Both the position numbers and the translations under genes were made by a program. This document shows positions 7,277-13,130 of a stretch of 64,000 nt of DNA, piece after piece. The stretch covers positions 1 to 64,000 of the forward strand of contig NZ_JADRHM010000002.1 in the NCBI RefSeq assembly GCF_018205345.1, in the 5' to 3' direction. The number at the start of each line of letters is the position of its first letter. The stretch's first letter is position 1. The stretch is from Fusobacterium sp. DD2. Its GTDB lineage: Bacteria; Fusobacteriota; Fusobacteriia; Fusobacteriales; Fusobacteriaceae. The notes beneath the pieces are model-generated. The model ran no database searches and was not told where the DNA came from. It worked only from the letters and a program-made list of their open reading frames with translations.

Positions 7277-8002
7277 TTATATGGAAATATCTTTCTTGTA
7301 ATAAACTTTTCCTGTTTCATCTCTTATAGTTAAAAGTGCACTGTGCATATTTTTATTTTCAAGATATACTGCTGCACTTACAAGAGACTCTCCTGTTCTT
7401 GAAGAGTTTCCAAGCTTACCTTGATATACCTTTCCAGTAGCTCTATCCTCAAGGCTATAACTTAGTTTTAATGCACTATTTCCTTTTGAAACAACTGTTG
7501 CATCCATCTGCAAGCTATTTCCCCTTTTAAAGTAGTTTAATTTTGTTATCTCTCCTGAAACATTTACATTGTTTCCCATTCCATATACAGGTATTGATAT
7601 CTCTGCAAGTATCCCTATATTAGATGAGATGGCATCTGAAGAACTTTCAGATGTTGTGGTTTTCTTCTCCTGCTCCTTAAAGGTAATGTAACTTTTAAAC
7701 TCTCCATCCTCTTTTTTAGGAGTAACTCTGAATCTCACTATCTGTTTTCCTCCAGGTTTTACTGATACCTTCTTGGGAAATATTTTTATATTGTCATTAA
7801 GGTTATATTCCTCTCCAAAATTCTTATCAACTTCTGGAAAAATCTCTATTCTCAAAGGAACAGTAGTATTATTTACTATGAATAGCTCCTCTGTGTTCAT
7901 CTTACTCAGATCAAACTCAAATCTTGTTGGATAGATTGAGAAATCAAGTGACAATGATACAGTTGAGATAATTAATAATAAGATTAATACTATTTTTTTC
8001 AT
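7277..8002 (-). CDS. Periplasmic pilus chaperone, second copy
   Basis: A 241-residue exported protein with an N-terminal signal peptide (to about SLS) and a PapD-like immunoglobulin fold. The usual landmarks are present: a mature N-terminus forming the first strand (FSIYPTRFEFDLSK), a NNT turn (VNNTTVPLRIEI), and IFPKKVSVKPGGKQIVRFRV, the segment that lines the subunit-binding groove. Such chaperones donate a strand to unfolded pilins in the periplasm and carry them to the usher. It is last in the operon and longer than its sister at 8521-8958 (145 residues), with a full second domain. Two chaperones may serve different subunits. Naming a specific subfamily needs a profile search. Confidence 0.8.
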   Translation of the reverse strand: MKKIVLILLLIISTVSLSLDFSIYPTRFEFDLSKMNTEELFIVNNTTVPLRIEIFPEVDKNFGEEYNLNDNIKIFPKKVSVKPGGKQIVRFRVTPKKEDGEFKSYITFKEQEKKTTTSESSSDAISSNIGILAEISIPVYGMGNNVNVSGEITKLNYFKRGNSLQMDATVVSKGNSALKLSYSLEDRATGKVYQGKLGNSSRTGESLVSAAVYLENKNMHSALLTIRDETGKVYYKKDISI

Positions 8003-8011
8003 ATGTTTCTC

Positions 8012-8503
8012 CTATTCATACCATACTTTTACTTTTAAAGTTCCTTCATAATCTCCAGATTCTGCATTTTCTGGCACAAGTAGATTACCTTTTAATGTCA
8101 TTTTTTTCTCTCCACTTTCTAAAGCTAGTGGTTGGCTTAATTTTAGATCCAATTCTGGACTATAAGTTAATGTTGTTGAATTTGAATTTGTTTTCGATTT
8201 TAATGCTACTGTAAGTCCACTTATAGTATCTTTCCAATCCTCTGTCATTCCATCAGCAAATTGAATTTTTACCTTTTCACTAGCTTGACCTTTGATTACG
8301 ATTTCTCCATTTTCTATTGGTGCATTTTTTTTAGATCCTTTTGCAACTTTACCAAATTTAACTTCTTTTGTTGTAAGTTCTAAAGGTTCTACTACTGTAG
8401 CTGTAACTTTCACCTCTGCAGTTTGTTCACTATTAGTATTTTCTGCTCCTACTGCTGTTAGTGCCATAGCCATAAAACATACAGCTAACATTGTTTTTTT
8501 CAT
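8012..8503 (-). CDS. Probable major pilin subunit (DUF4402-like)
   Basis: A 163-residue secreted beta-rich protein with a clean signal peptide (cut near VGA). The mature part opens with VKVTATVVEPLELTTKEVKFGKVAKGS, the pattern of DUF4402-type fimbrial subunits (a strand, then 'FG.va.G'). It ends in an alternating strand (YEGTLKVKVWYE) like that of the first gene of the operon. It has no Cys. Placement between two chaperones and downstream of an usher, and its size, suggest the repeating pilus subunit. The ribosome site AGGAGG is strong, consistent with high expression. The family call is by pattern only. Confidence 0.7.
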   Translation of the reverse strand: MKKTMLAVCFMAMALTAVGAENTNSEQTAEVKVTATVVEPLELTTKEVKFGKVAKGSKKNAPIENGEIVIKGQASEKVKIQFADGMTEDWKDTISGLTVALKSKTNSNSTTLTYSPELDLKLSQPLALESGEKKMTLKGNLLVPENAESGDYEGTLKVKVWYE

Positions 8504-8520
8504 TTGTAAATTCTTCCTCC

Positions 8521-8958
8521 TTAATTTTTCACTCCGTATAACGGTAGTGCTATCTCTGTTATTATATTTAGATTAAAGATTAAATCTTTATTCCCATTAT
8601 CTATATTTGCTCCATTTTTTGGAACAACCTCTCTTAAAACAAATAGATTCTTATATTTTCCTTTTTCTAATTTATCAAGTTTTCTTACTGTAAATCTGAG
8701 TTCTTTCTTTCCTCCAGGTTTTATTGAAATCTTTTTAGGAAAAATGACTATATTTTCAGAGAGAGCTTTATATCCCTCTTCACTTTCAAAATATGCCATT
8801 AATCTCAAAGGTTTTCCTGTATTATTGGTAACTTCAAGAGAGTAGGTTCTGGTCTTTTCCATATCAATTTTAAATTTTACAGGGGACACTGAAAAGTTAA
8901 GTGAATAACTTCTAATCCCTATAAAAAACAAAAATATCAGCAAAACTAATTTTCGCAA
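8521..8958 (-). CDS. Periplasmic pilus chaperone, short copy
   Basis: A 145-residue exported protein clearly related to the chaperone at 7277-8002: the segment LNFSVSPVKFKIDMEKT, then VTNNTGKPLRLMAYFE, and IFPKKISIKPGGKKELRFTV. It stops at about the end of the first immunoglobulin domain, so the second domain of a standard chaperone is missing. It starts with TTG, 13 bases inside the end of the usher gene, behind AGGAGG, so the two are translationally linked. I see no frameshift that would restore a longer protein; it ends in a proper stop, 17 bases before the pilin ATG. It may be a one-domain chaperone or a specialised partner. Confidence 0.75.
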   Translation of the reverse strand: MRKLVLLIFLFFIGIRSYSLNFSVSPVKFKIDMEKTRTYSLEVTNNTGKPLRLMAYFESEEGYKALSENIVIFPKKISIKPGGKKELRFTVRKLDKLEKGKYKNLFVLREVVPKNGANIDNGNKDLIFNLNIITEIALPLYGVKN

Positions 8959-11507
8959 TCTTTTCCTCCTGAATCTAAAAACATATCTACATCATAACCT
9001 TCAAAATATTCACCTGTGTCTCCACCTGTTGTATCAACATCTATCTCAAGTTCTTTCTCAGAAAATTCAATATCCTCTGGCCCAAAATATATAAATCTTA
9101 TTTTGTATCTTCCAGGTAATACATCTTCAAAGAAATACATTCCATCAAATTCAGGTTTTGTCTCATCTACTATTTTTCCATCTTTTACCAGTTCAATACT
9201 TACAAGAGAGAGTTTTCTGCTGAATTTATTTTCTGGAACATCAAGTTTATTATATATATTTCCAGATATTATTGAGATAATATCCAATGGTATATCTAAA
9301 GCCATTTTTGTTGATGGTAAGGTTTTAATTCTAATCTTGCTAAAATTTGACTTATACATAGGGTCTATTGTTTTTCTATCTACTTCCAAAGACACCACTG
9401 TTGGAGTAGCAATACCATTTGCTATATAATCTCCATTTTCATTGCTGTAAAATTTACTTCCATCAATTAATACACATGCTCCTTCAATAGGAATATCTCC
9501 CTCATCAAATATATCATTTGAGTTTTTATCCAGATATATTTTCCCATGAATAGACGCATTTGTAACTGATGAACGGTTGTCATACTGTGCTGTAGGATTT
9601 CCCAAATCAAATACTTTTGTTACTTCCAAACCAGTTATTGTTTCAGATTTTGAATTCTGACTTTTTCTTGTATCAGTAGTTGTTCTCATATATATAAAGT
9701 CATCAAATTTAACACTGAAACTTATTCCATATCTCATTTTTTCCGTATCTCTGCATGGAGAATATCTTACAAATATTCCAATATCTCCATAAAGTTTATC
9801 CTGAATTATCTTTACATCCCTTTTATCAAGCTTTAAACTATAATAATCTTTCCATTTTCCTCTTTTATCTTTTTCAAATCCACCTTCTAGAATTGTAGTA
9901 AAAAATCCATAGTATGAAATAGTAGGATATACTCCATACTCATTACTTTCCTCTTCTAAACTTTTTTCAAACTTAACTGAGAGGTAGAAAGGATTAAAAC
10001 TGTAGCTGTTCCAATAAATATACATATTTTTCCTTCTATTTTTCCTATATTTTAAATAATACTTTTCTTCCAGTCCAACTTCAAGATAATTTCTATTGAA
10101 AGTTCTTCCAAGAGAAAGTGAATTATATTCTTTAATTGAATTTTCATTGTATATATACTCAGAATATTTTTCATGTGCTAACTTCATCTGCATTTTCTTA
10201 TACTTCTGAGTCAATGTTATATTATAGTTATTCTCATTAGAGTTCATTTCATAATAATTTTTAAATTCTATAAGTGTTGGTGCAATTTTATGTCTGCTGT
10301 TATACAGAATTTTATTTCTAAAAAAATCAAATTTTTTACCAGAAGGAGATGTTAACATTCCATATCCAACTCCTGCTGTAAGATTATCTGTCAATCCATA
10401 ATATAAAACAAAATTTCCCTGCTCATGACCTGTTTTACTCTCTTTTCCAATCTGCATATTTATCTTATTTTTTCCCTTTTGAAGAATGTTCAGGTCATTT
10501 ATAGAAAATACTTTTCTCTCTTCATACTTTCCATCAGCGTAATATATCTTCATAATATAACTGTCAGACATACTTCCATCTGATATCTTAAATTCAAAAG
10601 TTTTACTTGTAGGGTGGATATAGTCAAGGAGGAATGAACCAGTATAAAGTTCCACTGTTTCTGCTCCCTCTGCTTCCCCTTTTATTATTGTCATTCCACT
10701 ATCACGAAAGAAATATGTCCTCTCATTGTTCAGACTTATCCCTATTACATCACCACTTGCATTTATAAAATGTGGTTTATCCATATAGATATTTCCAAGA
10801 ACAAGGTCATTTTCTCCCAAAATATCATCATATGTAAGGTTTCCATAATTTACAATATCTCCATCTTTAAGATTTCCGTTTAAATATAAACTTCCATATA
10901 AAAACTGATTTCCATATTCATAGCTAAGATTGTCGTATTTTGGAAAATCGTAACTGTAATAATTCAACTTTACAAAACCAGGTGTTAAGACCTTTCTTCC
11001 CATAATTATATAATCATCTTTTGTATCCTCATCTTTTTGGGCATCAAATCTTAATCTGTCAATTTTTCCCTGTACTCTCTCTTCATTGGGCAAAAGAAAA
11101 TTTGGTATCAGACTAAGTGTAAGCATGGAATAATCAAAAGTTATGTTTCTAAAATCAAATTTTTCCTTTAAGCTATCCATTTCAACATAAAGTTCATCAT
11201 CTAAAATAAAAGCTTCTCTCTCATCAAGTTTTATCTTCTTTTTTTCTCCCTTAACTGTATAACTAACAGTCAATTTATCTAAATCTGTCTCTACATCATA
11301 TAATTCTAAAAAATAAAAAAGTGCAGTAATCCCAATATACACTTTTTCATTTTCTCCATCATATCTCATTGGGAAAAAGCTGTTTCTTAACTGTCCACAT
11401 CTTATCTCTGCATAGGACTCATCAAAAGTTTCATAATTTTCTACTCCTGAGGCTGTAACAAACAGTGATAAAAAACTTATTACAATAAGTATATATTTAA
11501 TTCTCAT
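8946..11507 (-). CDS. Outer-membrane usher of a chaperone-usher pilus
   Basis: An 853-residue protein with a signal peptide (residues 1-20) and a long central stretch of alternating polar/hydrophobic strands rich in Tyr, Gly and Asn, as expected for an outer-membrane beta barrel. After the signal comes a compact domain (about 25-130), then a plug-like segment, then the barrel (about 340-640). The C-terminal 200 residues hold two Ig/B-type repeats, one from 654 (GKIYLDKNSNDIFDEGD, a calcium-binding SdrD-B-like start) and one from about 748. This build recalls ushers of the alternative (CS1/CFA-type) pathway more than FimD/PapC. It overlaps the preceding gene by 11 bases and the next by 13. Exact subfamily is uncertain. 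Confidence 0.75.
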   Translation of the reverse strand: MRIKYILIVISFLSLFVTASGVENYETFDESYAEIRCGQLRNSFFPMRYDGENEKVYIGITALFYFLELYDVETDLDKLTVSYTVKGEKKKIKLDEREAFILDDELYVEMDSLKEKFDFRNITFDYSMLTLSLIPNFLLPNEERVQGKIDRLRFDAQKDEDTKDDYIIMGRKVLTPGFVKLNYYSYDFPKYDNLSYEYGNQFLYGSLYLNGNLKDGDIVNYGNLTYDDILGENDLVLGNIYMDKPHFINASGDVIGISLNNERTYFFRDSGMTIIKGEAEGAETVELYTGSFLLDYIHPTSKTFEFKISDGSMSDSYIMKIYYADGKYEERKVFSINDLNILQKGKNKINMQIGKESKTGHEQGNFVLYYGLTDNLTAGVGYGMLTSPSGKKFDFFRNKILYNSRHKIAPTLIEFKNYYEMNSNENNYNITLTQKYKKMQMKLAHEKYSEYIYNENSIKEYNSLSLGRTFNRNYLEVGLEEKYYLKYRKNRRKNMYIYWNSYSFNPFYLSVKFEKSLEEESNEYGVYPTISYYGFFTTILEGGFEKDKRGKWKDYYSLKLDKRDVKIIQDKLYGDIGIFVRYSPCRDTEKMRYGISFSVKFDDFIYMRTTTDTRKSQNSKSETITGLEVTKVFDLGNPTAQYDNRSSVTNASIHGKIYLDKNSNDIFDEGDIPIEGACVLIDGSKFYSNENGDYIANGIATPTVVSLEVDRKTIDPMYKSNFSKIRIKTLPSTKMALDIPLDIISIISGNIYNKLDVPENKFSRKLSLVSIELVKDGKIVDETKPEFDGMYFFEDVLPGRYKIRFIYFGPEDIEFSEKELEIDVDTTGGDTGEYFEGYDVDMFLDSGGKDCEN

Positions 11508-12354
11508 CTGTATACTCCACCCTCACAATAAAACTCCCCTCATATTTTCCATATTCATTAGGTTTAGTTCTACATACACCATCTATTATAAAGTGGGTAA
11601 AAGCAAATCCATCTCTATGTTTAGAAGGTGAGTATCTTCCATCTTCACTTGCATTTCTAAATCCAAGATTAACATCTAAAGTCTGCTCATTCCTCTGAGT
11701 ATTTTTTATTGTCACTTTCTTGGGCATATGTACCTTGAAGTTATTTCCCTCTTCGCTCTCTATAGTTATTTCTGCAGGTGTTCCTGTTCCTCCAAGTCTT
11801 GTGCTCAATGTTCCTCCTGCAAAGGTTTTTCCCAAGTCCATATTTTTATCAACTATAACCTTAAGTTTTTTTTGTGGTTCTATATCAGGTTGTGGCACTC
11901 CAATATAGATTGTTTCTCCATTTCCCAGTTTACCTAATTTACACCTAAGATTAGAACCATCTGTTTCTCTACTATTCCAATTAATTGTACAATCCAATAC
12001 TAATTCTATCGCAGTTACTGGTTCCCACTCTCCTATGTAATGTCTAAAATAACAGTAAGGATTCTGCCAATCAAAATATAAACTATTTGGATTTTTTAAT
12101 TCAGCTCTAGTCAACCATCCAGTGCAACTTATATCATTATTATGGGTCTCAAAAACAAAATAACTATAATTATCTTGATCGTTATAATTTTCTATAATAA
12201 ATCTGATAATTCCCCTTGCTGCACTATCAAAACCTGGTTCTGGTTGAACACGTTGAAACTGCTTATCTACCTGTACTTGAATATTCCTGGCAAAACCTGA
12301 AACTGATATAGTAAATAATAATATCAAAAAAATAAAAAAATTCTTAATTGTCAA
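11497..12354 (-). CDS. Pilin-like protein, likely tip or minor subunit
   Basis: A 285-residue secreted protein, first gene of the pilus operon. A signal peptide ends near SGFA. The first half (about 25-145) has several Cys residues (in DISCTGW, NPYCYF, VLDCTIN and LRCKLG) and could be a receptor-binding domain. The second half (from about 155) is a beta-rich pilin-like domain that ends in EYGKYEGSFIVRVEYTDEN, similar to the end of the putative major pilin. Two-domain build and first position suggest a tip adhesin. The start is unusual: a TTG only two bases after GGGAGG, so the true start may lie slightly further in; no ATG is available before the signal peptide core. I do not recognise a named family. 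Confidence 0.65.
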   Translation of the reverse strand: MTIKNFFIFLILLFTISVSGFARNIQVQVDKQFQRVQPEPGFDSAARGIIRFIIENYNDQDNYSYFVFETHNNDISCTGWLTRAELKNPNSLYFDWQNPYCYFRHYIGEWEPVTAIELVLDCTINWNSRETDGSNLRCKLGKLGNGETIYIGVPQPDIEPQKKLKVIVDKNMDLGKTFAGGTLSTRLGGTGTPAEITIESEEGNNFKVHMPKKVTIKNTQRNEQTLDVNLGFRNASEDGRYSPSKHRDGFAFTHFIIDGVCRTKPNEYGKYEGSFIVRVEYTDEN

Positions 12355-12478
12355 AACCTCCCATAAACTTTTTAAATGATATGTATCCAGTAAAATGAAA
12401 ATTAAATAGTAACATCAAAAAATATTATAAGAATTATTTTAAATTAGGAATTTTAATTAATCTACACTATTTTTTTTT

Positions 12479-12953: not shown

Positions 12954-13130
12954 CTATTTTTTAGAGTTAGAAACTATAACTCCATCCTTTATTATAAGCT
13001 TTCCATCAATAACGTAATCGTCACAATTGAGGTCCTTTGCTGTAATGTCCATGTCATCCTCTTCCTGAGAACCTAACTCTTTTCTAAACCGTCTGTGAAG
13101 TAAGTCCATAACGTCTTCTCTCGAATCCAT
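12954..13130 (-). CDS. Small hypothetical protein of 58 residues
   Basis: A short frame from ATG at 13130 to TAG at 12954, with GGGAGG placed 7 bases before the start, a promoter candidate upstream (TTAAGC 13229-13224 and TATAAT 13205-13200, 18 apart) and a strong terminator after it. The product starts MDSREDVMDLLHRRF and is acidic in the middle (QEEDDMD). It ends in IDGKLIIKDGVIVSNSKK, with a strand-like IDGKLIIKDGVIV pattern. It has no signal peptide or membrane segment, so it is probably cytoplasmic. A lone transcription unit of this kind is a real gene rather than noise, but I do not recognise the family. Confidence 0.75.
   Translation of the reverse strand: MDSREDVMDLLHRRFRKELGSQEEDDMDITAKDLNCDDYVIDGKLIIKDGVIVSNSKK

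Follow-up and report, generated by a model that had tools for sequence, protein, structure and literature searches.

Chaperone-usher pili are best known from Proteobacteria. In their classical form, the cleft of the chaperone is marked by a residue pair, Arg8 and Lys112 in PapD, and the pilins carry a glycine at the 14th position from the end and a penultimate tyrosine. The present work concerns the first 64,000 nucleotides of contig NZ_JADRHM010000002.1 of the gut-type Fusobacterium sp. DD2 (the window; all coordinates are those of this whole stretch, position 1 being its first letter) and a five-gene operon within it, which probably encodes a divergent chaperone-usher pilus system building an adhesive surface fibre.

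The excerpted account of PMC4654587 restricts the classical and alternative types to beta- and gamma-proteobacteria and, for the archaic type, adds alpha- and delta-proteobacteria together with Cyanobacteria and Deinococcus-Thermus; Fusobacteriota are not among the phyla named there for archaic systems. The chaperone-usher pathway is omitted from the survey PMC4793230, as far as its excerpt goes. Titles and opening abstract lines of the open-licence literature yielded no description of such operons or pili in Fusobacteria, in agreement with an earlier note on this DNA, made from the sequence alone, that pili are poorly described in these bacteria. The same titles and abstract openings held nothing on one-domain chaperones and nothing for DUF4402.

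The operon and its divergent usher

From 12354 to 7277, the minus strand carries five genes in tandem, which form one transcription unit read in the order P0001-P0002-P0003-P0004-P0005. They encode a two-domain adhesin-like subunit (P0001, 12354-11497, 285 aa), a divergent outer-membrane usher (P0002, 11507-8946, 853 aa), a one-domain PapD-like chaperone with a TTG start (P0003, 8958-8521, 145 aa), a DUF4402 protein that is the candidate major pilin (P0004, 8503-8012, 163 aa) and a two-domain PapD-like chaperone (P0005, 8002-7277, 241 aa). The first two junctions are overlaps of 11 and 13 bases and the next two are gaps of 17 and 9 bases. AGGAGG stands directly 5' of the TTG start of P0003 and GGAGG 5' of P0004, and a terminator-like hairpin (7274-7248, minus) lies 3' of the last gene. 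All five proteins begin with a hydrophobic signal-like stretch, and the tight set of five exported proteins read by the earlier note is found in the open reading frames.

In Pfam, P0002 alone matches above noise only SdrD_B (residues 769-820, E 5e-6, near the Pfam cut-off) and CarboxypepD_reg, and two domains of this kind form its C-terminal part (about residues 650-830, 9018..9560, minus). PapC_N and PapC_C have no match in it, and a scan against NCBIfam gave none. The affiliation of the protein becomes visible at the level of its family. Eighty stretches around most of the places with relatives were fetched, the HMM search was iterated, and 48 members were aligned; five of the 48 match PF00577, with a best E of 5.5e-13. 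Across 98 Fusobacteriota genomes, PF00577 occurs in 14 places, 13 of them within members of this family and the last in a frame of 98 aa that contains stops, and the matching members include ushers 35-36% identical to P0002. Moreover, the family profile aligns with five E. coli K-12 ushers in hhalign at a probability of 96.5 (E 7e-10), against 0.1 or less for eight column shuffles and 0.6 for the reversed profile. The match is strongest at residues 233-383, around the plug. Taken singly, all five classical K-12 ushers align at residues 228-382, as against none of ten non-usher K-12 proteins. On sequence grounds, the usher is homologous to PF00577 ushers at the family level, in its plug region and domain order.

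The order of domains in P0002 fits an usher. An N-terminal domain is followed by a short strand-rich part, a plug-like Ig domain (residues 261-338, 10494..10727, minus) within the part that best matches the E. coli ushers, a long strand-rich part and the two C-terminal domains. Over residues 365-640, the family-averaged hydrophobicity alternates to a degree reached by none of 2000 shuffles (1 of 2000 for the FimD family), which hints at strands. The earlier note had called this 853-residue protein an usher and had named a usher profile search and a barrel prediction as the check. Its SdrD-B-like C-terminus and, at the family level, its PF00577 homology stand; the protein by itself gave no usher match and a model of low confidence, and it is the family-level evidence that decides.

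The N-terminal domain of these ushers deserves a separate mention. Cu_amine_oxidN1 is matched by 9 of the 48 family ushers (best 4.9e-5). Together with the lack of PapC_N in P0002, these matches raise the prospect that the domain receiving the chaperone may be of another kind. At the other end of the protein, the family shows variation in length: L076:1545-5444 encodes a 1299-aa usher that carries additional SdrD_B-like repeats at its C-terminus, and three more stretches match the usher end domain.

Chaperones and fibre subunits

In the fetched loci, the chaperone profile matched 140 proteins, namely 120 of more than 200 aa and 19 of less than 160 aa, besides one of 172 aa that is truncated at the end of its contig. 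Among solved structures in the PDB, its sole significant match is CsuC of the archaic Csu pilus (E 3.4e-5). Compared with the K-12 chaperones, the two-domain proteins reach E 8e-6 and the one-domain proteins E 9e-5, and shuffles give 0.3 or more. PapD_N is matched by 13 of 28 two-domain relatives (best 7e-9) and WxLIP_PGBD by 6 of the 28. P76 is present in all 120 two-domain chaperones and matches the proline that is invariant in the superfamily, which is Pro59 in CsuC according to the excerpts of PMC4654587. P0005 has two Ig domains, and P0003 has domain 1 only. Judged by their G1 strand and invariant proline, these proteins are PapD-like chaperones, with a predicted function in donating a strand.

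The claim of the earlier note that one of the two chaperones is a single domain holds. P0003 aligns with domain 1 of P0005 at 38% identity and ends directly behind the segment corresponding to the G1 donor strand. The putative strand (residues 130-141, 8536..8571, minus) was placed from the sequence, a strand in the model and a by-eye correspondence with CsuC, and its residues L130, I132, T134, I136, L138 and L140 alternate. The donor positions V110, F112, M114 and Y116 of CsuC line up, again by eye, with the alternating hydrophobic residues. A model of P0003 built from three sequences (mean pLDDT 70) shows a complete PapD-like domain 1, with a disordered stretch at 115-132 and a final strand at 135-144. 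In Foldseek, CsuC, PapD and FaeE rank first for this model, CsuC being the top row (E 6.6e-7 to 1e-6 for CsuC and PapD), and the VIA comparison places it close to SfaE (Z 12.5, rmsd 2.6, 105 aligned).

One-domain chaperones are not confined to this operon. They account for 19 of the 140 chaperone matches, a count that includes five divergent proteins of 124-139 aa which are possibly not chaperones, and they are present in 16 of 85 usher neighbourhoods. In L043, L044, L047 and L049, the short chaperones overlap or abut the neighbouring genes, and thus no space is left there for a lost second domain. A domain-1 tree was calculated from 12 one-domain rows and from the 69 two-domain rows left after thinning at 70% identity; the five divergent proteins were omitted. 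In this tree, which has few columns and places P0003 on a long branch of 1.1-1.2 changes per site, the 12 clear one-domain proteins need four changes, and the AU test rejects a single clade (p 4e-5).

P0004 matches DUF4402 at E 6e-5, near the Pfam cut-off. The counts for pilins rest on 18 proteins of the P0004 type; profiles iterated on the loci drifted into chaperones and were not used. DUF4402 is matched by 17 of the 18, and SCPU weakly by 9 (E 0.1 or better, best 9e-5). G150, Y152 and Y162, in P0004 numbering, are invariant in all 18; G150 is the 14th residue from the end and Y162 the penultimate one. An alternating N-terminal segment, kept in P0004 and most relatives, may serve as the donor strand between subunits (residues 30-40, 8384..8416, minus), as the alignment suggests.

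P0001 matches DUF4402 as well (residues 175-281, E 4.2e-6, also near the cut-off); the two pilin-like proteins named in the earlier note are both supported. The pilin family matches the C-terminal domain of 120 residues of the P0001 family (E 2.4e-14), which in P0001 spans residues 166-285 (11500..11859, minus) and was delimited by conservation and by this match. G269, Y271 and G273 are invariant in 20 of 20 proteins, and Y281 is nearly so. Among 33 proteins in the same position, the fraction of the most frequent residue per block is 0.23-0.33 over residues 16-165 and 0.31-0.52 over residues 166-285. The N-terminal domain of P0001 holds four cysteines, in keeping with the cysteines remarked on before, and this is particular to the protein in the window, which has five in total versus 0 to 2 in the other 32. 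A variable N-terminal domain joined to a pilin domain fits a tip adhesin.

Proposed assembly and competing explanations

In the assembly proposed here, the role of main pilin would fall to P0004 and that of tip subunit to P0001, whose variable binding domain precedes the pilin domain. In the periplasm, the PapD-like chaperones would lend each subunit their G1 strand and so make up its incomplete Ig fold. The chaperones would then deliver the subunits to P0002, predicted to be a plugged barrel in the outer membrane with two C-terminal domains, where the donor strand would give way to the N-terminal segment of the subunit that follows. P0005 would be the full chaperone. P0003, which offers the donor-strand domain only, would probably serve one subunit, either the tip or the first shaft subunit. 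It would act without the help of a second domain in holding the subunit C-terminus, which is used by CsuC and EcpB.

Several results weigh against this proposal. P0002 alone has no PF00577 match at E 1, and none was found in its own genome; it gave no useful PDB match either, and the PDB matches of the family profile cover only the SdrD-like end (E 0.004). Its model, built from two sequences, has a mean pLDDT of 33 and is unusable for judging the barrel, which is a prediction. VIA rows of this model with FimD (9bog, Z 7.5, rmsd 14.8, 144 aligned) and with the middle domain of Caf1A (3fcg, Z 7.4, rmsd 3.4, 70 aligned) were discounted, being tied with unrelated Ig domains. On the side of the chaperones, P0005 alone lacks a PapD_N match, and that of P0003 is under the cut-off (E 0.005). 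The columns of PapD Arg8 and Lys112 are not conserved (R in 15% and K in 20% of the 120 two-domain chaperones), and the column aligned to CsuC Arg89, in a region of uncertain alignment, is not basic in the family. The model of P0003 is as similar to MSP and WxLIP domains as to chaperones (a WxLIP protein gives Z 13.3, rmsd 2.0, 111 aligned, and MSP domains score little lower), and the fold by itself is therefore no proof of a chaperone role. Finally, the pilin profile has no relative in the PDB.

The affiliation of the system can be weighed against the described types. The earlier note saw a resemblance to the alternative CS1/CFA-type pathway, and some observations agree with it. The N-terminal V-x-V-x-A-x-V-x-P of the pilins resembles that of CS1-type pilins, the C-terminal usher domains are carboxypeptidase-regulatory-like as in EcpC, and EcpC by itself gives a weak alignment with the usher family over these domains (P 0.006). 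The PapD_N match is equally weak in EcpB and in the chaperones of the family. However, EcpC, an alternative usher, carries TcfC and CooC_C and no PF00577, whereas P0002 has neither TcfC nor CooC_C at E 1 and its relatives do match PF00577; P0003 and P0005 lack EcpB_C. TcfC is weak in the family ushers: 2 of 48 reach E 0.1, and 1 of 10 gives E 0.0048, below the cut-off. None of the 98 Fusobacteriota genomes has a TcfC match over the cut-off, and the matches under it were dismissed; the stretches where they lie hold no protein recognised by either profile, usher or chaperone. Searched against the PDB, the chaperone profile gave CsuC, not CfaA or EcpB. The CS1/CFA assignment finds no support, and an alternative-type pilus appears very unlikely. 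A canonical archaic, Csu-like system (sigma), merely unrecorded in Fusobacteriota, has a small but real chance. Among solved structures, only CsuC is significantly related to the chaperones, and it heads the Foldseek list for P0003; half of the pilins match SCPU, and archaic systems have the widest distribution in the excerpted text of PMC4654587. Against it stand the non-basic column at Arg89 and the lack of an SCPU match in P0004 at E 1, together with the DUF4402 pilins. One-domain chaperones and SdrD_B-like usher ends are not met in that account of archaic systems, so far as excerpted. With the classical systems of E. coli K-12 (FimCD, YehBC and others), the family shares the usher plug region, chaperone domain 1, the invariant proline and the pilin glycine and tyrosine; unlike them, it lacks PapC_N and PapC_C in P0002 and a conserved Arg8/Lys112 pair. 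The CsuC and SCPU matches suggest a weak archaic affinity of the chaperones and pilins, and the lineage is placed as a divergent, Fusobacteriaceae-wide chaperone-usher branch, nearer to the archaic than to the alternative type. A more radical explanation, that surface Ig proteins are secreted through a non-usher barrel with SdrD/carboxypeptidase-regulatory domains, draws on the fact that similarity is recognisable only in the plug and C-terminal domains, the barrel part being too diverged. The plug match is nonetheless specific and collinear with ushers, and chaperones are always adjacent, which makes this explanation most improbable.

Two other explanations concern P0003 alone. Its shortness, its TTG start and its long tree branch could mark a decaying, functionless remnant of a two-domain chaperone. 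Yet the frame is open, AGGAGG precedes the start and the donor strand is kept, and P0003 ends 17 bases before the next start, leaving no room for a lost domain; with one-domain chaperones recurring across usher neighbourhoods and in several groups, decay is unlikely. P0003 might otherwise be no chaperone but a part of the fibre itself, an Ig domain complete on its own that is added as subunit or terminator at the base or tip. Its model is indeed a complete Ig domain, and members of the superfamily with the same fold, such as MSP, are structural. This is unlikely, considering that P0003 is homologous to the two-domain chaperones and retains an alternating G1 strand, for which a subunit would have no use. 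The reading of P0003 as a chaperone carries a consequence of its own. The excerpts of PMC4654587 describe the archaic carboxylate anchor as an Arg in strand F of domain 1 with a Tyr and an Arg in domain 2, so that in CsuC two of the three residues holding the subunit C-terminus belong to domain 2. P0003 lacks the domain carrying these two residues, and a one-domain chaperone must manage without them or get help. We tentatively propose that Fusobacteriaceae hold a separate chaperone-usher branch in which one-domain chaperones, arisen repeatedly, act through the donor strand only, as dedicated partners of single subunits beside the full chaperones. If true, donor-strand complementation would here be reduced to a minimal form, against the view that subunit anchoring in non-classical systems requires a second domain. 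The recurrence of one-domain chaperones is itself a natural experiment on the purpose of that domain.

Distribution in Fusobacteriota and neighbouring features

A single-sequence search found usher relatives in 39 of the 98 Fusobacteriota genomes; all belong to a single family, and a genome can hold as many as eight matching places. The genome of strain DD2 holds one usher of the P0002 kind and two chaperones. In the fetched loci, each of the 85 ushers of more than 600 aa is accompanied by a chaperone on its own strand, no more than 6 kb away; the 85 comprise 83 distinct sequences, and one F. mortiferum contig appears under two names, L031 and L033. The usher profile and the chaperone profile single out an identical set of 40 of the 98 genomes, and 57 have neither. 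As both profiles were built from the same loci, this agreement is not fully independent. One genome (G040), in which the usher match covers the C-terminal domain only, was set aside from this tally. The operon family, present in 40 of 98 genomes, is mostly missed by the standard usher model, and it would give the gut-type relatives of Fusobacterium an unstudied set of adhesins. A search for relatives in plasmids, phages and viral contigs returned nothing useful; a 28%-identical stretch of a Polaromonas plasmid protein covered the C-terminal domains only. Three usher genes contain stop codons (G019:C1:171242-173790, G022:C229:13206-15742 and G026:C1:3194886-3197414), and these broken copies fit gain and loss of the loci.

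The closest comparison in another species is offered by the F. mortiferum operon L031, where the genes follow in the order SBP_bac_5, adhesin, usher, MORN_2 protein, DUF4402 pilin and chaperone. Its usher is 48% identical to P0002, and adhesin, pilin and two-domain chaperone are the same. Unlike the operon of the window, it has the peptide-binding-like and MORN_2 proteins and no one-domain chaperone; the reverse holds for the window. A MORN_2 protein of about 300 aa directly follows the usher in 27 of the 85 cases (L031:5703-12622 and 26 other loci, L032-L041 and L043-L058), and in 24 of these 27 an SBP_bac_5-like protein lies one or two genes upstream. MORN2 proteins figure in the literature on Fusobacterium virulence, as its titles and abstract openings indicate; a tie to pili would be new.

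Other loci depart further from the operon of the window. After one usher, L037 and L038 carry chains of alternating pilin and chaperone genes, with up to four two-domain chaperones, and these chains look as though every subunit had its own chaperone. Some ushers of the more distant subfamily (L106, L108, L111 and others) are followed by very large proteins, about 1000 to 1930 aa in length, which could be large adhesins exported by the same route.

A few features near the ends of the operon remain to be described. GGGAGG (within 12341-12363, minus) stands 2 bases before the called TTG start of P0001 and 8 before an in-frame ATT; given the short distance to the TTG, the true start may be the ATT two codons on. 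Upstream of the operon, promoter-like matches occur at chance frequency (33 versus 36.6 in shuffles), the best of them, with 10 of 12 positions, at 12738-12710 (minus). Inverted repeats in the same region, considered for an invertible promoter, are imperfect and AT-rich, and none is claimed; no Rfam family was found in the operon region. A 58-aa open reading frame of unknown kind (12954-13130, minus) lies just upstream and is followed by a terminator-like hairpin. The unit preceding the operon is closed by a hairpin of this type, distinct from that of the operon, at 12919-12884.

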